A stretch of 43,224 nucleotides of DNA from assembly GCF_001984095.1 (NCBI RefSeq), contig NZ_LYVQ01000025.1, positions 1 to 43,224 of the forward strand, read 5' to 3'. The notes under the pieces were generated by a model that saw nothing but the letters and a program-made list of their open reading frames with translations, searched no databases and had not been told where the DNA came from. Shown here one piece after another: positions 32,918-43,224 of the stretch. Each line of letters opens with the position of its first letter. The stretch's first letter is position 1. Origin of the DNA: Pelomonas sp. KK5. GTDB taxonomy: Bacteria > Pseudomonadota > Gammaproteobacteria > Burkholderiales > Burkholderiaceae_C. Both the position numbers and the translations under genes were made by a program.

Positions 32918-33702
32918 GTCCCGAGACAGCGCCATTGCGGATTGGCCTCTCGGCGCGGCTGATGCACAAGCCGCCGGCCGAGCTGGGCTTTCGCAACAAG
33001 ACGCTGCAGTACCTGGAACAGGCGATCGCCCACTGGATCATGGCCCACGGCGCGATGGCGCTGATGCTGCCCACGCTGGGTTTCGACGCCGAGGTGGACC
33101 GCCGCCGCGTCACCGTGCGGCACTACGTCGACGCGCTGGACGGCCTGGTGATGCAGGGCGGGGCGGACGTGTCGCCCACCAGCTACGGCCAGCAGCCGCT
33201 GAAGCCCGAGTGGGGCGGCGACATCGTGCGCGACCGCTACGAGATGGAGCTGCTGGAGGGCTTCCTGGCCCAGGGAAAGCCGGTGCTGGGCATCTGCCGC
33301 GGCTGCCAGTTGATCAACGTGGCCTACGGCGGCACGCTGTACCAGGACATCGCCACCCAGCTGGCCGAGGCCAAGGCCCATGTGGACGCCGAGCTCTACG
33401 ACCAGCACCACCACGACATCGTCTTCGATCCCGAGTCGCGGCTGGCCAAGCTCTATGAAGGCCACAAGGGCGGCCTTGTCACCAGCATCCACCACCAGGC
33501 GGTGGACCGCCTCGGTGGCGACCTGATCGTCGAGGCCCGGGCCGTCGAGGACGGCATGGTGGAGGCGATCCGGGCCAAGGGCTCCTGCTTCGTCGCCGGC
33601 GTCCAGTGGCACCCCGAGTTCCATGCGATCAATCCGGAACTGCTCAGCGGGGAGCCCTTGATGAACGGCTTCCTCGATTGCGCGGCCGCTTCACGCGGCT
33701 GA
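32914..33702 (+). CDS. Gamma-glutamyl amide hydrolase-like class I amidotransferase (PuuD-type)
   Basis: The 262-residue protein belongs to the peptidase C26 family, whose member PuuD hydrolyses gamma-glutamyl-GABA. The nucleophile is Cys128 in [16 protein letters not shown]; the His-Glu pair lies in [12 protein letters not shown] chose the ATG at 32914, which overlaps the YbdK stop; an ATG at 32887 is nine codons earlier. Encoded after a gamma-glutamyl-type ligase, it may cleave the amide that the ligase makes. The last 12 bases overlap the convergent MFS gene. Confidence 0.88.
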
Positions 33703-34983
33703 GGAGCTGACCTCCTTGGCGCGGGCCGGCGCCTGTGGCGCGCGAGCTTCCTCGAACTTCGTCTCCGGCCGCATCCGGAACGACAGCGCGACGCCCACCG
33801 CCATCAGCAGCATGCTGCCGACGAAGGGCAGCTCCCAGCTGCCGAAGCGGTCGATCAGCCAGCCCGAGATCACCGGCGAGACGATGGCCGCGAAGGCCGA
33901 ACCGGTGTTCATCATGCCGCTGGCGGTGCCGGAGTGCTCCGGCGCGATGTCCATCGGGATCGCCCACATCGGGCCGATCGTCATCTCCGCGAAGAAGAAG
34001 CCGGCGGCGAGGCTCGCCATCGACACGTAGAGGTTGTGCGTCAGCATCAGCGGAATCAGCGAGAGCAGGGTCAGCGCCATGCACACGGCCACCATCCAGC
34101 TGCGTGCCTTCTGCAGGCTGCCGGTGCGCTCGTAGAGCTTGTCGGTGACGATGCCGCCCAGCGTGTCGCCGACGACGCCGGCGAAGAACACGGCGGAGGC
34201 GAACAGGGCCGACTTCTTCAGGTCCAGGTCGTAGCTGTGCAGGAAGTACTGCGGGATCCAGCTGAGGAACAGCCACAGCGTCCAGCCGTAGCAGAAGTAC
34301 ACCAGCGTCACCGGCCACATGCGGCGGAACAGCTTGCCCCAGGGTACGTTCGAGACCTTGGACTTCAGCGGCGGCAGCGCGGCCAGTTCCTCCTGCGTGA
34401 TGCGCGGATGGTCCTTGGGCTGCTCGGTGAACACCCGGGCCCACAGCGCGACCCAGACGAAGCTGATGCCGGCGCAGACGTAGAACGATTCGCGCCAGCC
34501 ATGCGTGGCCATCACCGCCACGATCGCCGCCGGCGCCACCGCATTGCCGACCCGCGCCGCCGCATGGGTGATGCCCTGCGCGAAGCCGCGCTTCTCCTTG
34601 GCCACCCAGCGCGACATCGCCGAGGTCGCCGCCGGGAAGGTCGCTCCTTCGCCCAGGCCCAGCAGCACACGGGCCACCAGCATCGAGGCCAGGCCGCCGG
34701 CCATGCCGGTCAGCACGGTGGCGCCGGCCCACACGGCGCCGCAGAACAGCAGCGTGCGCTTGGCCCCGAAACGGTCGCTGACCCAGCCCCCGATGATCTG
34801 GAACACGAGGTACGGATAGGCGAAGGCCGAGAACACCAGGCCGATCTGCGTCTTGCTGAGCCCGAACTCGGGCCCGAAGCCGGCCGCGGCCGTGCTGACG
34901 TTGACCCGGTCCAGGTAGGTGATGAAATACATCGCGCACAGCATGGCGATGACCACGTTGGTGGCGCGGAAGATCTTCTTCAT
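33691..34983 (-). CDS. MFS transporter, anion:cation symporter (ACS) family
   Basis: The 430-residue protein has 12 membrane segments. The N-terminal part (AMLCAMYFITYLDRVNVSTAAAGF, VSDRFGAKRTLL, LGLGEGATFPAATSAMSRWV) matches ACS-family carriers of organic anions such as tartrate, phthalate, glucarate and 4-hydroxyphenylacetate. The ATG at 34983 has AAGGAGA upstream. It lies 41 bases downstream of the aminotransferase gene on the same strand, so it probably imports the acid that this catabolic module uses. The C-terminal end overlaps the amidotransferase-like gene by 12 bases. Confidence 0.88.
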   Translation of the reverse strand: MKKIFRATNVVIAMLCAMYFITYLDRVNVSTAAAGFGPEFGLSKTQIGLVFSAFAYPYLVFQIIGGWVSDRFGAKRTLLFCGAVWAGATVLTGMAGGLASMLVARVLLGLGEGATFPAATSAMSRWVAKEKRGFAQGITHAAARVGNAVAPAAIVAVMATHGWRESFYVCAGISFVWVALWARVFTEQPKDHPRITQEELAALPPLKSKVSNVPWGKLFRRMWPVTLVYFCYGWTLWLFLSWIPQYFLHSYDLDLKKSALFASAVFFAGVVGDTLGGIVTDKLYERTGSLQKARSWMVAVCMALTLLSLIPLMLTHNLYVSMASLAAGFFFAEMTIGPMWAIPMDIAPEHSGTASGMMNTGSAFAAIVSPVISGWLIDRFGSWELPFVGSMLLMAVGVALSFRMRPETKFEEARAPQAPARAKEVSSSAA

Positions 34984-35024: not shown

Positions 35025-36251
35025 TCAGGCTTGTTGCTGCTTGTTGGTGGCGAAGTGCTCCATCGCGGCCTGCACGCCGCTGCCCTTGAGCTTCACGCCG
35101 GCCAGCTTCAGGCCCATCTCGCAGCCGGCCACGGTGCCCAGCAGCGTCAGGTCGTTGCTGTCGCCCAGGTGGCCGATGCGGAACATGCGGCCCTTCACCT
35201 TGGACAGGCCCGTGCCCAGCGACATGTCGAAGCGCTCGTAGATCAGCTTGCGCACCGCGTCGGCATCGACCCCTTCGGGCATCAGCACGCCGGTCAGCAC
35301 CGGCGAGTACACGGCCGGGTCCGCGCACTGGATCTCCAGGCCCCAGGCGTTCACCGCGGCGCGCACGCCGGCGGCCCAGCGCTGATGGCGCGCGAAGACC
35401 TGGTCCAGCCCTTCGCCCAGCAGCATGTCCAGCGCCTCCGAGAGGCCGTACAGCAGGTTGGTGTTGGGCGTATACGGCCAGTAGCCGGTGGCGTTCATCT
35501 CGACGATCTCGTCCCAGGCGAAGAAGGACTTGGGCATCTTCGAGCGCTTGCTGGCCTCGATCGCCTTCGGCGACAGCGCGTTGAAGCTGATGCCGGGCGG
35601 CAGCATCAGGCCCTTCTGCGAGCCGCTGACGGTGACGTCCACGCCCCATTCGTCATGCCGGTAGTCGGCGCTGGCCAGGCCGGAGATCGTGTCCACCAGC
35701 AGCAGGGCCGGGTGGCGCGCGGCATCGATCGCGCGGCGCACCGCGGCGATATCGCTGGTGACGCCGGTGGAGGTCTCGTTGTGGACCACGCAGACGGCCT
35801 TGATCGCATGCTGCGTGTCCTTGCGCAGGCGCTCCTCGATCAGGTCCGCCTGCACGCCGCGGCGCCAGCTCGGCGCGTGGGGCAGGGCGGCGTCGCTGCC
35901 CTGCCGGGCCAGCACCTCGGGCTCCAGCCCCAGCTTGCGGGCCATCTGCTGCCACAGCCAGGCGAAGTGGCCGGTCTCGTACATCAGCACCTGGTCGCCG
36001 GGGGAGAGCGTGTTCATCAGCGCCGCTTCCCAGGCGCCGGTGCCGGAAGCCGGGTAGATGGCGACCGGGTGCTCGGTCTTGAAGATCTGCTTGATGCCCT
36101 TGAGCACCTGCAGGCCTAAAGCGCCGAACTCGGGGCCGCGGTGGTCGATGGTCGGCAGGCTCATCGCGCGCAGGATCCGGTCGGGCACCGGGCTTGGGCC
36201 GGGGATCTGCAGGAAATGGCGGCCGGTGGGGTGGAAGTCGAGGTTCAGCAT
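35025..36251 (-). CDS. Glyoxylate aminotransferase (alanine/serine-glyoxylate type)
   Basis: The 408-residue class V aminotransferase has the family start FLQIPGPSPVPDRILRAMSLPTIDHRG, ETGHFAWLWQQMA, VHNETSTGV, the Asp in LLLVDTISGLASADY and the cofactor lysine Lys213 in VSGSQKGLMLPPGI. It is like serine-glyoxylate and alanine-glyoxylate transaminases, which make glycine from glyoxylate, but the amino donor cannot be told from sequence. ATG at 36251 is chosen over a TTG at 36257, with GGAGAC upstream. It faces the divergent FAD/Fe-S dehydrogenase across a region holding two operators. Confidence 0.9.
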   Translation of the reverse strand: MLNLDFHPTGRHFLQIPGPSPVPDRILRAMSLPTIDHRGPEFGALGLQVLKGIKQIFKTEHPVAIYPASGTGAWEAALMNTLSPGDQVLMYETGHFAWLWQQMARKLGLEPEVLARQGSDAALPHAPSWRRGVQADLIEERLRKDTQHAIKAVCVVHNETSTGVTSDIAAVRRAIDAARHPALLLVDTISGLASADYRHDEWGVDVTVSGSQKGLMLPPGISFNALSPKAIEASKRSKMPKSFFAWDEIVEMNATGYWPYTPNTNLLYGLSEALDMLLGEGLDQVFARHQRWAAGVRAAVNAWGLEIQCADPAVYSPVLTGVLMPEGVDADAVRKLIYERFDMSLGTGLSKVKGRMFRIGHLGDSNDLTLLGTVAGCEMGLKLAGVKLKGSGVQAAMEHFATNKQQQA

Positions 36252-36282
36252 CGGCAATGTCTCCGTCGTTGGATGAATCTAG

Positions 36283-36296
36283 TTTTGCATGCAAAA
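36283..36296. promoter_or_regulatory. Operator copy 1, TTTTGCATGCAAAA
   Basis: A perfect 14-base palindrome, 32 bases upstream of the aminotransferase start. An identical copy lies with centres 66 bases apart at 36349-36362. The most likely ligand is the GntR/FCD regulator encoded at 39499-40188, since a third, weaker copy precedes its own gene. Confidence 0.82.
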
Positions 36297-36334
36297 CACA
36301 ATACAACACTCGCGTTTACCCTTGTATTGCTGGG

Positions 36335-36363
36335 TTGTTGTCCGTATTTTTTGCATGCAAAAT
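36335..36363 (+). promoter_or_regulatory. Putative promoter of the FAD/Fe-S dehydrogenase with operator copy 2
   Basis: TTGTTG (36335-36340), a 17-base spacer and CAAAAT (36358-36363) form a modest sigma-70 promoter. The perfect palindrome TTTTGCATGCAAAA (36349-36362) covers the end of the spacer and most of the -10, a position suited to repression. The gene starts 28 bases after the -10. Confidence 0.6.
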
Positions 36364-36391
36364 GTTTACAACGCACAAAAGGAGACAAGCG

Positions 36392-39300
36392 ATGAAGATC
36401 GAAGACGCCAGCCGCCTGAGCCCGGCCCGCGCCCTCGGCACCGAGCTGCCGCCCAACGAGACCTGCGAGGCGCTGGCCCGCCGGCTGCGCGCCCACACGC
36501 AGGGCGAGGTGCTGTTCGACCTGCCTTCGCGCGGCCGCTACGCCACCGACGCGTCGATCTACCAGATCGTTCCCGCCGGTGTCTTCGTGCCCCGCACCGA
36601 GGACGACATCCAGGCCGCCATCGACATCGCCCGCGAGCTGCAGGTGCCGGTGCTGCCGCGCGGCGGCGGCACCAGCCAGTGCGGCCAGACCACCGGCGCC
36701 GCGCTGGTGATCGACAACAGCAAGCACTTCCGCCGCGTGATCGAGGTCGATGCGGAGCAGCGCCGCGCGGTGGTGGAGCCCGGCCTGGTGCTGGACCACC
36801 TGAACCAGCAACTGAAGGCCCACGGCCTGTGGTTCCCGGTCGACGTGTCCACCAGCGCGCAGGCCACGCTGGGCGGCATGGCCGGCAACAACTCCTGTGG
36901 CTCGCGCTCGATCGCCTACGGCAATATGGTGCACAACGTGCTGGGCGTCGATGCGTGGCTGTCCGACGGCCAGCGCGTGGGCTTCGGGCCGGTGTCAGGT
37001 CTTGCCGGGCGGGCGGTGGAGATCGCGAACTTCGTCCGCGACCTGGCCGCGCAGCATCGCGGCGCGATCGAGGCGAACTGGCCCAAGGTGATGCGCCGCG
37101 TTGCCGGCTACAACCTCGACATCTTCCACAACCAGAGCGAGCGGCCCTACACCGGCGACGGCGGCGTCAACCTCGCCCACCTGCTGATCGGCGCCGAGGG
37201 CACGCTGGCGTACACGCGGCGGCTCACCTTGCAACTGGCCGAATTGCCGCGCGCCAAGGTGCTGGGCGTCGTCAACTTTCCGACCTTCCGCGCGGCGATG
37301 GACGCGGCCCAGCACATCGTCAAGCTGCAGCCGACGGCGGTGGAGCTGGTCGACCGCATCATGATCGAGCTGAGCCTGACCAACCCGGCCTTCCGCCCGA
37401 CGATCGAGACCGCGCTGATCGGCAAGCCGGATGCGATCCTGCTGGTCGAGTTCTCCGGTGCGAACCGGGCGGAGTTGCTGCCGAAATTGAAGCAGCTTGG
37501 TGAGCTGATGGGCGACCTGGGCCTGCCCGGCTCCGTCGTCGAGATGAGCGAGGACGCGCCGCAGAAGGCGCTGTGGGAAGTGCGCAAGGCTGGCCTCAAC
37601 ATCATGATGAGCTTGAAGGGCGACGGCAAGCCGGTCAGCTTCATCGAGGACTGCGCGGTGCCGCTGGAGCACCTGGCCGAGTACACCGACGGGCTGACCG
37701 AGGTGTTCGCCAGGCACGGCACCCACGGTACCTGGTACGCCCACGCCTCGGTCGGCACGCTGCATGTGCGGCCCATCCTCGACATGCGGCGCGACGGTCC
37801 GGAGGGAGGCGCTGCACGCATGCGCGCCATCGCCGAGGACGCCGCAGCGCTGGTGCGCAAGTACAAGGGGGCCTTCAGCGGCGAGCATGGCGACGGTCTG
37901 TGCCGCGGCGAGTGGATCGAGTGGCAGTTCGGTTCGGAGATCAACAAGGCCTTCCGCGCGATCAAGCAGCAGCTCGATCCGATCAATCTCTTCAACCCCG
38001 GCAAGATCATCGACACGCCGCGGATGGACGACGTCTCGCTGATGCGCTTCCCGCCGCCCAGTGCGCCGCGGCCCTACAAGCGCATCGAGATCAAGCCGGC
38101 GCTGGATTGGTCCGCCTGGAACGTGCAGAACGATCCGGTCACCGAGGCCACCACCGCGCCCGGCACCGGCGGCGACAGCACCGGCGGCTTCGCCAAGGCC
38201 GTCGAGATGTGCAACAACAACGGCCACTGCCGCAAGTTCGACGCCGGCACCATGTGCCCCAGCTACCGCGTGACCCGCGACGAGCAGCACCTGACCCGTG
38301 GCCGCGCCAACACGCTGCGGCTGGCCGTCTCCGGGCAGCTCGGGCCTGATGCCTTTACCAGCGAGGCGATGCACGAGACCATGGACCTCTGCGTCGGCTG
38401 CAAAGGTTGCAAGCGCGACTGCCCGACCGGCGTGGACATGGCCAAGATGAAGATCGAATTCCTGTCGCACTACAAGGCGCGGCACGGCCACACGCTGAAG
38501 GACCGGCTGGTCGCCCGGCTGCCCGACTATGCGGCGCTGGCCAGCCGCTTCGCCTGGCTGCCCAATCTGCGCGACACGCTGCCCGGCGCCGCCTGGCTCA
38601 GCGAGAAGCTGCTGGGCTTCTCGGCCAAGCGAAGCCTCCCGAAGTGGCGCGCCGACACCTTCTGGCGCCAGCCGCGGATGGGCCTGGCCGACGGCGCGAT
38701 GGCGCTGGCCGCGGCCAAAGCCGGCCAGAAGGTCGCCGTGCTCTTCGTCGACACCTTCAACGGCACCTTCGAGAGCGAGAACGCCTGGGCCGCCGCCCGC
38801 GTGCTGATCGCCGCGGGCTATGTCGTCCATGCGCTCGAACCGCAGGCCGACGGCAAGCACCATTGCTGTGGCCGCACCTTCCTCTCGTCCGGCATGGTCG
38901 ATGAAGCGAAGGCGCGCGCCGGTGCGCTGGTCGACGCGCTGCTGCCCTTTGCCGAGGCGGGCATCGCTGTCGTCGGCCTGGAACCCTCATGCCTGCTGAC
39001 CCTGCGCGACGAGGCCTTGGTGATGGGCCTCGGCGACAAGGCGCAGAAAGTGGCCGGCCAGGCCCTGCTGTTCGAGGAGTTCGCCGCCCGCGAAGCCAAG
39101 GCCGGCCGCTTCGCGCCGAAGCTGAAGGCCGCGGCCCAGCCGATCCTGCTGCACGGCCACTGCCACCAGAAGGCCTTCGGCGCCGTAACGCCGATCCTCG
39201 ACGTGCTCAAGCTGATCCCCGACGCGAAGCCCGAGCTGATCGAAAGCTCCTGCTGCGGCATGGCAGGCAGCTTCGGCTACGAGGCTTCGCACCACGAGGT

Positions 39301-39463
39301 GTCGATGGCGATGGCCGAGGCCAGCCTGCTGCCGGCGGTACGCGCGAGGCCCGAGGCCATCGTCGTGGCCGATGGCACCAGCTGCCGCCACCAGATCGCC
39401 GACGGCGCCGCCCGCGAGGCCATCCATGTGGCCCGCCTGCTGGAGCAACAGCTCGCCTCGTGA
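36392..39463 (+). CDS. Large FAD- and Fe-S-binding 2-hydroxyacid dehydrogenase (YdiJ/D-lactate dehydrogenase type)
   Basis: The 1023-residue protein fuses an N-terminal FAD-linked oxidase domain (VFVPRTEDDIQAAI, LPRGGGTSQCGQTTG at about 88-102, GGMAGNNSCGSRSIAYG), an FAD-oxidase C-terminal domain (HGTWYAHASVGTLHVRP), two [4Fe-4S] motifs (Cys607 onward, CNNNGHCRKFDAGTMC; Cys667, 670, 673 and 677, CVGCKGCKRDCP) and two CCG domains (HCCGR at 824-828; SSCCGMAG at 952-959). The same layout is seen in E. coli YdiJ (1018 residues). Relatives oxidise D-lactate, glycolate or D-2-hydroxyglutarate and pass electrons to quinones. I chose the ATG at 36392, with AAGGAGA upstream; the frame is open farther up through the operators. 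With the aminotransferase, a glycolate-to-glyoxylate-to-glycine route is plausible, but the substrate is not proven. Confidence 0.9.
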   Translation: MKIEDASRLSPARALGTELPPNETCEALARRLRAHTQGEVLFDLPSRGRYATDASIYQIVPAGVFVPRTEDDIQAAIDIARELQVPVLPRGGGTSQCGQTTGAALVIDNSKHFRRVIEVDAEQRRAVVEPGLVLDHLNQQLKAHGLWFPVDVSTSAQATLGGMAGNNSCGSRSIAYGNMVHNVLGVDAWLSDGQRVGFGPVSGLAGRAVEIANFVRDLAAQHRGAIEANWPKVMRRVAGYNLDIFHNQSERPYTGDGGVNLAHLLIGAEGTLAYTRRLTLQLAELPRAKVLGVVNFPTFRAAMDAAQHIVKLQPTAVELVDRIMIELSLTNPAFRPTIETALIGKPDAILLVEFSGANRAELLPKLKQLGELMGDLGLPGSVVEMSEDAPQKALWEVRKAGLNIMMSLKGDGKPVSFIEDCAVPLEHLAEYTDGLTEVFARHGTHGTWYAHASVGTLHVRPILDMRRDGPEGGAARMRAIAEDAAALVRKYKGAFSGEHGDGLCRGEWIEWQFGSEINKAFRAIKQQLDPINLFNPGKIIDTPRMDDVSLMRFPPPSAPRPYKRIEIKPALDWSAWNVQNDPVTEATTAPGTGGDSTGGFAKAVEMCNNNGHCRKFDAGTMCPSYRVTRDEQHLTRGRANTLRLAVSGQLGPDAFTSEAMHETMDLCVGCKGCKRDCPTGVDMAKMKIEFLSHYKARHGHTLKDRLVARLPDYAALASRFAWLPNLRDTLPGAAWLSEKLLGFSAKRSLPKWRADTFWRQPRMGLADGAMALAAAKAGQKVAVLFVDTFNGTFESENAWAAARVLIAAGYVVHALEPQADGKHHCCGRTFLSSGMVDEAKARAGALVDALLPFAEAGIAVVGLEPSCLLTLRDEALVMGLGDKAQKVAGQALLFEEFAAREAKAGRFAPKLKAAAQPILLHGHCHQKAFGAVTPILDVLKLIPDAKPELIESSCCGMAGSFGYEASHHEVSMAMAEASLLPAVRARPEAIVVADGTSCRHQIADGAAREAIHVARLLEQQLAS

Positions 39464-39476
39464 ATCGCATGCAAAA
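39463..39476. promoter_or_regulatory. Operator copy 3 (degenerate) before the GntR gene
   Basis: AATCGCATGCAAAA matches 11 of 14 positions of the operator TTTTGCATGCAAAA, keeping the GCATGCAAAA half intact. It starts at the last base of the dehydrogenase stop codon and lies 22 bases before the GntR start, which suggests autoregulation. Confidence 0.6.
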
Positions 39477-40192: not shown

Positions 40193-41590
40193 TTATTTGC
40201 GGACGTTGTCCAGGCTCGGCGGCGGGGTGTAGCCCTGCTCGCGTGCCCGGCTTTCCCACTGGCTCGACAGCAGCGGCTGGTTCTGGCTGCGGTAGTGCAG
40301 GGCCAGGTCGTAGCTCGCGATGCCGTTGCCCAGCGCCGAGGCCAGTTGCAGCCAGCCTTCGTAGCGGTTCATCCAGTTGGCGGTGTCGCGGCGGTTGCGC
40401 TGGATCTGGGCGATGCGGGCGGCGGCGTCCTTGTCGCCGCGGCCGGCGCGGTGCAGGTCGCGCTGCATGTCCTCGTCGGTGGCCAGGGCCGCCGGCAGGT
40501 CGAAGGCGGTCTTGAACAGGCGCACCTCGCGGCGGCGCAGCGCCTTCAGCGCCTCGGCGCCGCCATTCTTGGCCACCATCGCGGCGGGGGCGTGAGCGCT
40601 CTTCGGATGGGCCTTCAGGAAGGCGTCGGCGCGCTCGACCACGTCGGCCGGCCAGACCGCGTCGGTCAGCGCCTGGAAGTCCTGCTCCTCCTGCTCGGCA
40701 TCGGGCAGGGCAGGGCCCGCCGCGGTGGCGATGCCGCGCGGCGCCAGCGTGCAGCTGGCGCGCGTGCTGTCGGCGATGAAGGAGTCCTGGGCCAGCCTGC
40801 GGATCGCCTCGACCGGGTGGTGCAGCATGGTCTCGCGCACATCGGTACGCACCAGCTGGAACAGGTCGCGGAACTGGGTCTGGTCGGAGGTGCTCTCCAT
40901 CAGCTTGACCAGCGAGGCGGTGTAGAAGGTGCTGCGGTCGGCCACCGCCGGCGCCACGGCCGGGCGGCCCGCGCCGGTGGAGAAAGCGATCAGGCAGTCG
41001 GCCGGGGCCACCACCTGGTTCAGGCCGCCGTCGGCGCCGGCCTTCAGGCTGGTGCGGCAGGCGTCGACGATCGCGACGATGGTGCCGCCCTTGCGAGGCG
41101 GGATCTTCAGGATCACGTCGTCGATCAGCTTGACGCTGCCGCCGCGCAGCGTGTCGGGCTTGCCGGACGGGTCCAGCCCGGCGGGCAGCAGCAGGTTGCT
41201 GGCATCGACCTGGATGCCGTGGCCGGAGAAGTAGAACAGCAGCGTCGCGTCGGCCGGCGCGGCGGCGGCTTTCGCAATGAAGTCGTCCAGCGTCTTGCGC
41301 GAGGCCGGCAGGTTGCCGTTCAGCGCGTCGCTGACCACGAAGCCGCGCTGTTCCAGCACGTAGCGCAGGTCGTGCACGTTCTTCGGGATCGGGGGAAGGT
41401 CGAAGGGCGCCGGATATTCGCTGTTGCCCATGAGCAAGGCCAGGCGCACCTCACTCTGGGCCTGCAGCAGGTCGCCGGACTCCGCTGGGGCGGCGGCGCG
41501 CGCCGGAGGCAGCGCGGCCAGCAGGCTGCCGAGGCCGGCGGCCTGCAGCAGCTGGCGGCGGCCAGGATGGGAGCTGTCAGTCTTGCTCAT
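40193..41590 (-). CDS. Caspase-family (C14) protease with Tat signal
   Basis: The 465-residue protein has a twin-arginine signal (GRRQLLQAAGLGSLLAALPPARA, about 10-32) and a caspase-like p20 domain: EVRLALLMGNSEYP, then LRYVLEQRGF, catalytic His124 in LLFYFSGHG and catalytic Cys178 in VAIVDACRTS. The C-terminal half (about 320-465) is helical and has a Sel1/TPR-like end (GNGIASYDLALHYRSQNQPLLSSQWESRAREQG). Bacterial caspase-like proteins (orthocaspases) cut after basic residues or act in signalling and defence; export by Tat points to a role in the periplasm or outside. The start at 41590 is chosen for the signal peptide. It is 31 bases downstream of the exoprotein gene on the same strand. 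Confidence 0.9.
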   Translation of the reverse strand: MSKTDSSHPGRRQLLQAAGLGSLLAALPPARAAAPAESGDLLQAQSEVRLALLMGNSEYPAPFDLPPIPKNVHDLRYVLEQRGFVVSDALNGNLPASRKTLDDFIAKAAAAPADATLLFYFSGHGIQVDASNLLLPAGLDPSGKPDTLRGGSVKLIDDVILKIPPRKGGTIVAIVDACRTSLKAGADGGLNQVVAPADCLIAFSTGAGRPAVAPAVADRSTFYTASLVKLMESTSDQTQFRDLFQLVRTDVRETMLHHPVEAIRRLAQDSFIADSTRASCTLAPRGIATAAGPALPDAEQEEQDFQALTDAVWPADVVERADAFLKAHPKSAHAPAAMVAKNGGAEALKALRRREVRLFKTAFDLPAALATDEDMQRDLHRAGRGDKDAAARIAQIQRNRRDTANWMNRYEGWLQLASALGNGIASYDLALHYRSQNQPLLSSQWESRAREQGYTPPPSLDNVRK

Positions 41591-41621
41591 GATGGTTCCG
41601 ATCCTACAGCTTAGGGATTGC

Positions 41622-43224
41622 TCATGGTTGGCAATCGGCACTATCGCAGCTCGGCGGCGATTGCACACCGCCTGATCCGGTGGTGGCGGCGCGGCCGGGG
41701 CCAACCTCCGCGATCACGCCGGCACGCAGGCGCACGGTGACGTTCTCGGTGCGCACCGCCTCCTCGAAGCGGTCGCGCCGCGCCGACTCGGACACCGCCG
41801 TCACCGAGGACAAGGCGCTGGTCAGCTGCGGCACGGCCGGCAGCACGTTGTTGTAGAAGACCGGGATCTCGCCGGACTTGCCCGCGCCGTCGTGGAACAG
41901 GCTGTAGCCGGCCCCCGCGGCCAGCGACACCGGGCCGACCAGGTAGATCGCGGTGCTGCCCTGGGCGCCCAGCAGCGGGCGCACGGTCAGGAAGCCGGAG
42001 TCCGGCCCCTCGGTGCGGTTGCCGGTGGCGCGGGCGCCGATCGACACGTTGATGCCGCTGTCGCCCGCCCCGCCGAAGCTGAAGGCGGTCTGGAAGGCGC
42101 CCGGCAGCAGGTTCAGCAGCAGGCCCGGCTGCGACAGCGTGGTGCCGGCGGCGATGTTGTCATAGGGCAGGCGCACGGTGATCGCCGCAGTGTCGACGGT
42201 GGCCAGCTTGGCCGCCGAGATCTCGGCGAAGTCCGCCTCCAGCCCGGCGCCGCCGATGTTCAGCGTCTGTCCGGCCAGGCGCACCCGGGTCTGGATGCCG
42301 ACCGCCCCCTGCACGTTGGCCGACCAGGCGGTGTTGTAGGCCGCACCGCTGAGCACGGCGATGCTGCCGGCCACCTCGTTTGCGGTCTGGTTCAGGTCGA
42401 TGGAGCCCAGCGCGCTGACGCTCAGCGTGGCGCCGCTGGCGATGTTCAGCGTGCTGCCGTCTGCCTGGGTCAGCGTGGCCTCGGCGACGGCCAGCGGCTG
42501 GCCGGTCAGCGGGATCAGGGCGGTGGGGCTGGTCTCGGCCTTGGCGGCGTCCGGCGCCGCGCGGGCGATCAGCTTCAGCTCGCCGCCGCTCAGGGTCAGC
42601 GCGCCGGTCAGCGCCACATGCTCGGCGCTGATCTGGCCGCCGTTGGCCAGTTGCACGGCACCCAGGCTCAGATCCTGCGGGGCCAGCAGCTGCACGCTGT
42701 TGGCCGTCAGGTTCAGCACCTGGCTGCCCAGGCTGTTGGCGGCCTGGGCGCTGGCGTCCAGCAGGCCGCCGGCGCTCAGCGTGATCGGCGCCGCGGCGCT
42801 GATCGTCAGGCCGCCGCCGTAGCGCTGGTCGCCGGTGGTGGTGACGTTGCCCTGTACGGTGACCATGCCGTCGGCGCTCAGCGAGCCGATGGTCTCGTTG
42901 CCGGCCAGCGTGAGGCTGGCGCCGGCCGCGACCTGCACCGCGGAGGCATTGGGCAACTGCTCGGCGCCGCCGGTGGCGAGGCTGCCGCTGCTGACGCGGG
43001 TGGTGCCGGTCCAGGCGTTGTCGGTGCTGCTCAGCGTCAGGTGGCCCACGGTCTGCTCGACACCGCCGCTGCCGGTGATCGCGTTGCCCACGGTGACAGC
43101 GTCGCTGCGGGCGAAGCGCAGCAGGCCGCGGTCGTCGACGGCACCGCTGCCCAGCGCGCCGCTGCTGCCGCCGTTGCCGATCTGCAGCGTGCCGGTCTCG
43201 ATCAGGGTGCCGCCGGTGTAGCTG
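41622..43224 (-). CDS. Large secreted beta-helical exoprotein, C-terminal part (cut by right edge)
   Basis: The frame is open from the edge to the stop at 41622, about 533 codons. The GTG at 43091 inside it is not a start, since residues upstream (SYTGGTLIETGTLQIGNGG) continue the repeat. These and TWNAW-like DNAWTGTTRVSSGSL are autotransporter-associated beta-strand (PATR) repeats, with Ser/Thr/Gly/Ala-rich parallel beta-helix sequence after them. The end (AAITVRLPYDN to CDSADCQP) has no beta-barrel, so secretion by a two-partner (FhaC/ShlB-type) system is more likely than as a classical autotransporter. The N-terminal secretion domain is outside the window. Downstream is the caspase-like gene on the same strand. 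Confidence 0.82.
   Translation of the reverse strand, partial: SYTGGTLIETGTLQIGNGGSSGALGSGAVDDRGLLRFARSDAVTVGNAITGSGGVEQTVGHLTLSSTDNAWTGTTRVSSGSLATGGAEQLPNASAVQVAAGASLTLAGNETIGSLSADGMVTVQGNVTTTGDQRYGGGLTISAAAPITLSAGGLLDASAQAANSLGSQVLNLTANSVQLLAPQDLSLGAVQLANGGQISAEHVALTGALTLSGGELKLIARAAPDAAKAETSPTALIPLTGQPLAVAEATLTQADGSTLNIASGATLSVSALGSIDLNQTANEVAGSIAVLSGAAYNTAWSANVQGAVGIQTRVRLAGQTLNIGGAGLEADFAEISAAKLATVDTAAITVRLPYDNIAAGTTLSQPGLLLNLLPGAFQTAFSFGGAGDSGINVSIGARATGNRTEGPDSGFLTVRPLLGAQGSTAIYLVGPVSLAAGAGYSLFHDGAGKSGEIPVFYNNVLPAVPQLTSALSSVTAVSESARRDRFEEAVRTENVTVRLRAGVIAEVGPGRAATTGSGGVQSPPSCDSADCQP

Follow-up and report, generated by a model that had tools for sequence, protein, structure and literature searches.

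Divergons of GntR-family regulators with an FCD domain, among them those of GlcC, LldR, PdhR and MdcY, combine two sites with an A/T-rich palindrome, and the accessible part of the paper that describes them gives the operator consensus of the family as a GT...AC core (PMC4494728). A second close system is DhdR of Achromobacter denitrificans, a GntR-family repressor of D-2-hydroxyglutarate dehydrogenase which, according to the available sections of its report, is co-transcribed with the FAD dehydrogenase in the order regulator, dehydrogenase and has the operator GTTATCAGATAAC, overlapping promoter elements (PMC8651671). Among the enzymes, YdiJ, the D-2-hydroxyglutarate dehydrogenase of E. coli, is described in the accessible part of its source as a fusion of GlcD-like and GlpC-like halves (PMC9504171). 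Here we analyse a locus of Pelomonas sp. KK5 (contig NZ_LYVQ01000025.1, positions 1 to 43,224; this whole stretch of 43,224 nt is called the window), in which the genes of a class-V aminotransferase (AT) and of a dehydrogenase (DH) with the same two halves as YdiJ are divergent, two copies of the perfect palindrome TTTTGCATGCAAAA lie between them, and the gene of a GntR/FCD regulator follows DH.

The locus shares its type of regulator, the A/T-rich palindrome and the doubled site with the FadR/FCD regulons, and differs from them in its core, GC-AT-GC as against the GT-Nx-AC stated in what is accessible of that source. It resembles the DhdR system in having a GntR-family gene probably co-transcribed with a FAD dehydrogenase gene and a site at promoter elements, and most relatives of the window module also show the order regulator, dehydrogenase. 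The two systems, compared by operator and not by regulator sequence, differ in that the conserved sites here are TTTTGCATGCAAAA, which rules out identity with the DhdR operator as given in the available text; the window module also has a 1023-aa Fe-S fusion dehydrogenase and an aminotransferase. None of the 33 regulators in the accessible table of a further source, which includes GlcC (glycolate), is described for this gene set (PMC5343134). Searches for the operator strings and their variants as exact text, with RegPrecise and most subscription papers outside the search, returned no relevant paper, and searches by gene terms returned none on an AT/DH/GntR module. Collectively, this local GntR/FCD regulon belongs to a known type, and its operator was not found in the literature searched. 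We consider it very probable that both palindromes are operators of the adjacent GntR/FCD protein, each covering one of the two divergent promoters and serving repression.

Results

Two palindromes confined to one intergenic region

An earlier, sequence-only reading of this DNA had pointed to an exact palindrome occurring twice between the divergent AT and DH genes, and this was confirmed: TTTTGCATGCAAAA was present there in two exact copies, with a mean of 0.00 copies in 100 shuffles of the window. Within the 6,873,519-base assembly (619 contigs) both exact copies sat at this locus and none elsewhere. With up to one mismatch to the looser pattern TTTTGNATNCAAAA, a single extra and poorer site was found in the genome (contig C126, TTTTGAATCCGAAA), and the reversed-pattern control gave 0. 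The shuffles, the genome-wide uniqueness, and the 150-genome sample and enrichment in intergenic regions of relatives (both next section) rule out a chance origin of the palindromes; a wider regulon in the Pelomonas sp. KK5 genome was also ruled out, there being one further, poor site at one mismatch.

A weight matrix was built on 166 sites of relatives, with the window left out. The two palindromes and a degenerate third site before the GntR gene were the top three scores in the 43 kb window (30.9, 30.9 and 12.0 bits), the next best being -1.4; this matrix is not fully independent of the window, because the relatives' sites were chosen with a pattern derived from the window motif.

The sites accompany the regulator in related genomes

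Conservation was assessed in a family set of 399 genomes, 93 of which held the regulator (called at E ≤ 1e-60) at a total of 95 places. AT, DH, GntR and sites with at most two mismatches to TTTTGNATNCAAAA were mapped in the stretches around all 95, the divergent region being taken from AT to GntR (from AT to DH in the window, and as the 260 bases upstream of GntR where AT was lacking). This region held a site with no mismatch at 82 places and with at most one at 92, which supports reading the palindromes as operator-like sites that are linked to this GntR protein and conserved along with it. The three places missed by the script were L084, whose regulator is the least alike (55% identity), the second regulator copy in L177, and L214. 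In L214 the script misplaced the region and both sites do exist, which brings the count by inspection to 93 of 95. Two sites were found in 76 divergent regions, one in 16 and none in 3. The spacing of the pairs was 62-67 bp in 56 of the 76 two-site regions, and exactly 66 bp in 24, the window included; the remaining 20 had spacings of 52, 55, 73-85, 106-159, 358 and 426 bp.

Sites with at most one mismatch numbered 157 in 15,400 bp of divergent regions, as compared with 10 in 1,115,052 bp elsewhere in the loci. On inspection, six of these ten lay before detached DH genes, two belonged to L214 and one to the other module copy of L177, leaving one stray (L071). Seven stray sites in relatives (L218-L224, among the matches listed) had no homologue of the four module proteins within stretches of up to 3 kb.

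The gene order AT<->GntR-DH was found at 87 of the 95 places, including five with DH more than 2 kb from GntR. Other arrangements were AT<->GntR without DH in the stretch (three places), GntR-DH without AT (two), GntR alone (one), and a different order around the second copy in L177 (one); the order AT<->DH-GntR was seen once, in the window itself. The two regulator copies of L177 (G218:C23) are ~4 kb apart and in opposite orientation. In L078 (G020:C23) a second regulator copy has neither AT nor DH in its stretch, yet two operator-like sites upstream.

A sample of 150 genomes contained the exact palindrome in ten, eight of which had it no more than ~110 bp from where the regulator match starts; the other two were the window genome and G092. 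The latter, the only genome of the 150 with the exact palindrome and without the regulator, has it inside an open frame (L034, 1242-1709), and this occurrence was taken as chance. The looser pattern TTTTGNATNCAAAA occurred in 57 of the 150 genomes (reversed control, 8 of 150): by hand count, 41 of 43 genomes with the regulator (E ≤ 1e-50) had an exact match, as against 16 of 107 without it, and in one of the 41, G070, the match was not beside the regulator.

Additionally, named genomes were scanned with an alignment of 19 regulators and the best 80 loci were kept; these come partly from the same genomes as the family set, and the two sets of counts are not additive. They span Acidovorax, Variovorax, Polaromonas, Ramlibacter, Limnohabitans, Polynucleobacter, Cupriavidus, Bordetella, Reyranella, Salinicola and others. 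AT was the divergent neighbour of the regulator in 77, and a site was present without mismatch in 50, with at most one in 66 and with at most two in 76. Loss of the motif where the regulator is kept, set beforehand as the observation that would speak against the operators, was seen in neither set as the general state.

The core of the site varied by lineage: GCATGC in Acidovorax and the window, GCATTC in Variovorax, and elsewhere GCATAC, GTATGC or GTATAC, the last in Polynucleobacter and Reyranella. The GC-AT-GC core of the window departs from GT-Nx-AC; sites in the corresponding position of Polynucleobacter, Reyranella and other genomes are GT-AT-AC and fit it. A link between Asp at position 69 of the regulator and the GC...GC core is not claimed, being confounded by descent.

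Position of the sites relative to promoter elements

On the flank of operator 1 that faces away from AT, 40 of 90 family and 17 of 72 named loci had an exact TTGACA directed toward AT, at a distance of precisely 6 bases from the operator; the background for TTGACA in such a stretch was 0.1-0.2% for an exact match and 5-7% for one mismatch. Seventeen bases past this box lay an A-rich hexamer built from the end of operator 1, most often AAAAAT. On the other side, 14 of 63 family and 8 of 32 named two-site loci had TTGACA with at most one mismatch precisely 8 bases ahead of operator 2, and CAAAAT 17 bases on, these two counts being given without a background figure. In many relatives each site occupies the stretch from the -35 box to the -10 of the respective promoter, which makes repression by occlusion the best reading: where the operator fills the spacer and touches the -10, a bound dimer should block polymerase.

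In the window itself, the earlier claim that copy 2 overlaps a -10 box is supported only indirectly, in that CAAAAT at the -10 position of a minority of relatives overlaps this copy (Table 1). The boxes are poor matches in the window, and a simple scan of 36200-36450 returned no sigma-70 consensus promoter.

A different element, an [AT]CCCT box, was found beyond operator 1, its start at a distance of 21 bases in 46 of 162 loci and of 20 bases in 6, as compared with 187 of 9,523 background stretches of 45 bp; the group includes Acidovorax, many Variovorax and the window. Beyond operator 1, the 162 loci had the CCCT box alone (48), TTGACA alone (50), both (7) or neither (57). The [AT]CCCT box may be the site of a second factor, or a piece of an altered promoter. 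TTACCCT at 36316-36322 of the window matches this box, which in its 52 of 162 loci is mostly found without a TTGACA box.

Operator 2 appears to run up to the GntR start codon in L052, L055, L060-L062 and other loci like them (distance -1 to -2 from a start estimated by alignment), which would imply a very short or leaderless regulator transcript.

Table 1. Predicted sites, promoter-like elements and genes of the module, in window coordinates
Feature	Position	Strand	Basis or remark
Operator 1 (AT-proximal), perfect palindrome TTTTGCATGCAAAA	36283..36296	.	Predicted; exact match, genome scan, matrix rank
Operator 2 (DH-proximal), perfect palindrome TTTTGCATGCAAAA	36349..36362	.	Predicted; spacing to operator 1, 66 bases
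Operator-like site 3, AATCGCATGCAAAA; weak, probably what remains of a GntR-proximal operator	39463..39476	.	3 mismatches; matrix; similar sites of relatives
TTGTTG, 3/6 letters of TTGACA	36335..36340	+	Counterpart of the -35 box kept by a minority of relatives; 8 bases ahead of operator 2
CAAAAT, presumed -10 position overlapping operator 2	36358..36363	+	17 bases from -35 position; 14 family relatives alike
MFS transporter, probably second gene of AT operon	33691..34983	-	Pfam MFS_1 4.6e-71; 41-base gap to AT
Class-V aminotransferase (AT)	35025..36251	-	Pfam Aminotran_5; nearest solved chain 6pk1_A, E 4e-108
FAD-oxidase/Fe-S fusion dehydrogenase (DH), GlcD-like + GlpC-like halves, 1023 aa	36392..39463	+	Pfam, NCBIfam models
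GntR-family regulator with FCD domain, 229 aa	39499..40188	+	Pfam GntR 1.2e-18, FCD 2.3e-26

Genes that carry the sites

Sites were also found before members of the module that lie away from the regulator. Five detached DH genes from two genera (L068, L076, L082, L208, L209) all had a site pair of their own 66-67 bp apart, the second copy being worn in each; the divergent neighbour of DH was a TctC gene in L076 and L082. A detached AT gene with a site was found in G110, and in L106, where AT lies elsewhere in the locus, it was preceded by a site with one mismatch.

The sequence-only reading had tied transporter, aminotransferase, dehydrogenase and regulator into one regulon. This stood for AT, DH and the regulator, while the transporter joins them through operon adjacency only. 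A homologue of the MFS protein (tblastn, E up to 1e-15) was found in 3 of 43 orthologous loci (L042, L044, L051). In the few loci inspected for transporters there were parts of a TTT system (TctA, TctB or TctC in L076, L082, L086, L121, L144 and L153), parts of TRAP systems (DctM in L148, DctP in L143) and an SSS symporter (L159). The transporter is exchangeable among modules, and the gene set would fit a small regulon, local in scope, by which an organic acid is taken up and used. In L143 (Pararhizobium) and L148 (Candidimonas), AT and the regulator occur with TRAP genes and an amidase and without DH in the stretch, which in L148 ends soon after the regulator; this may represent a pathway variant with an amide as its starting compound.

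The weak third site

A degenerate copy before the GntR gene had also been noted and was found again, as AATCGCATGCAAAA with 3 mismatches. The description of the locus as three-site needs qualifying, however: two sites are strong, the third is weak, and the usual number in the intergenic region of relatives is one or two. With up to 3 mismatches allowed, the window contained 3 matches against a shuffled mean of 0.34, with 2 of 100 shuffles reaching at least 3. In loci of relatives 189 of 1,099,078 positions reached 12.0 bits, to be compared with the 166 sites in the matrix, so that a chance match at the place of site 3 appears unlikely. Site 3 shares the last base of the DH stop codon, and 22 bases separate its end from the GntR ATG (39499).

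Site 3 is probably a former GntR-proximal operator that moved along with GntR, and may still be weakly bound. That it is a working operator which gives GntR a repressible promoter of its own seems doubtful to us. Its favour comes from its rank as third-best site of the window, well apart from the next score, and from the GntR-proximal sites of close relatives, where the left arm is similarly worn (CATTGCATGCAAAA in L042, GATTGCATGCAAAA in L043, ATTCGCATGCAAAA in L046 and AAATGCATGCAAAA in L049). However, it scored below all 75 GntR-proximal sites compared, the lowest of which had 16.6 bits (these were chosen at up to 2 mismatches), and GntR is probably co-transcribed with DH, because it starts only 35 bases behind it.

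Proteins of the module and their possible substrates

Both the GntR winged-helix model (N-terminal) and the FCD model (C-terminal) of Pfam exceeded their cut-offs in the regulator. H143, H187 and H209 were invariant among 19 aligned sequences and paired, as read by eye, with His residues of the solved chain 3fms; we take these three to be the ligands of the FCD metal site. On family grounds, this invariance and alignment make a metal-held carboxylate the likely type of ligand.

None of the four module proteins reached an NCBIfam cut-off among the models shown (for the MFS protein, the best 25 of 63). The regulator gave 49 bits with the GlcC model NF007442 (cut-off 301) and 115 bits with PhnR_burk, a phosphonate-associated model (TIGR03338, cut-off 271.5), and was far below the cut-offs of the LldR and PdhR models. 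AT is of class V, as are serine-/alanine-glyoxylate aminotransferases and BhcA, and its nearest solved chain, 6pk1, carries the name serine--glyoxylate aminotransferase; with the model of BhcA, the aspartate-glyoxylate aminotransferase (NF045640), it stayed below the cut-off (452 bits of 650). DH scored 507 bits with the YdiJ model NF049975, and the substrate of YdiJ is not transferable to it because this is far under the cut-off of 1350. With the glycolate oxidase GlcD model TIGR00387 DH reached 190 bits (cut-off 567.9). A better GlcD candidate, with 508 bits (likewise below the cut-off), is encoded on another contig of this genome (C41), which makes glycolate a less than obvious substrate, and in view of this gene and of the distance of DH from the GlcD and YdiJ cut-offs it was not accepted as a certain one. 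The assignment to glyoxylate and 2-hydroxyacids is a putative one, founded on family resemblance.

Pfam recognised no family in the window open frame 33644-34939 or in three open frames of L121, which are probably wrong-frame readings. An open frame behind the regulator, 40193-41704 on the minus strand, has a caspase-like look, with SGHG and DACR read by eye.

Discussion

If the palindromes act as proposed, one regulator dimer on operator 1 would cover the -10/spacer region of the AT-MFS operon promoter and another on operator 2 that of the DH-GntR operon promoter, so that both operons would be shut and the regulator would limit its own synthesis. A small carboxylate bound in the FCD pocket would release it. 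DH would then probably oxidise a 2-hydroxyacid to a 2-oxoacid such as glyoxylate, and AT would transaminate the product. With respect to gene order, we infer that GntR moved from before DH to behind it in Pelomonas sp. KK5, weak site 3 looking like the former GntR-proximal operator; tandem duplication followed by loss is a guess at how this happened, and no remnant of it was seen.

Several observations weigh against this reading. No sigma-70 promoter was recovered around the palindromes, and more than a third of loci (57/162) have neither box beyond operator 1. A single site only is present at 16 family places, and the most divergent family regulator, that of L084, has none. Among the best 80 named loci, no site was seen in L106, L143 and L155 even with 3 mismatches allowed, and the single site of L147 had 3. 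In addition, one of the two promoters may be activated, and the conserved distance might reflect one complex that spans the pair and not two independent switches.

The last point leads to the alternative of a composite operator, in which two dimers or a tetramer bridge the sites ~66 bp apart, loop the DNA and control both promoters jointly. We regard it as rather unlikely, while acknowledging that the predominance of 62-67 bp pairs, and of 66 bp among them, speaks for it, as does the recurrence of a 66-67 bp pair before all five detached DH genes. Moreover, FadR-subfamily divergons with a constant inter-site distance are described as co-operative in the accessible part of Suvorova et al. 2015 (PMC4494728). 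Against this, 20 of the 76 pairs have other spacings, 66 bp does not correspond to an integral number of helical turns, and each site in many loci is set at a constant distance of its own from a -35 box, so that promoter geometry may explain the spacing. That the palindromes instead serve another, distantly encoded regulator and lie next to GntR by coincidence is highly improbable: the GC...GC core does depart from the GT...AC consensus in the available text of PMC4494728, and the looser pattern occurs somewhere in 16 of 107 genomes without the regulator, but in the family sample the sites go together with the regulator gene and seldom occur in other parts of the loci, and more distant relatives hold consensus-fitting GTATAC cores at the same place.

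Separate operators for the two divergent promoters remain the preferred reading. A broader proposal is offered tentatively and may well prove wrong: an unreported local regulon would extend across Burkholderiales and some Alphaproteobacteria, and in it an FCD regulator would control a module of hydroxyacid dehydrogenase and aminotransferase by way of a promoter-embedded pair of sites, duplicated whole at the new place of any gene that departs from the cluster; the core would have drifted from GT-AT-AC to GC-AT-GC together with the regulator, and the conserved ACCCT box between the sites would be the site of a second factor in one clade.

The sites supply a candidate operator for a widespread GntR/FCD group that was not found characterised, and mark the genes that would be under its control. 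The operator can also be used for finding detached members of the pathway, as with the DH and AT genes away from the regulator. Release of the regulator from the operator by its ligand would be a direct route to the substrate of the DH/AT module.

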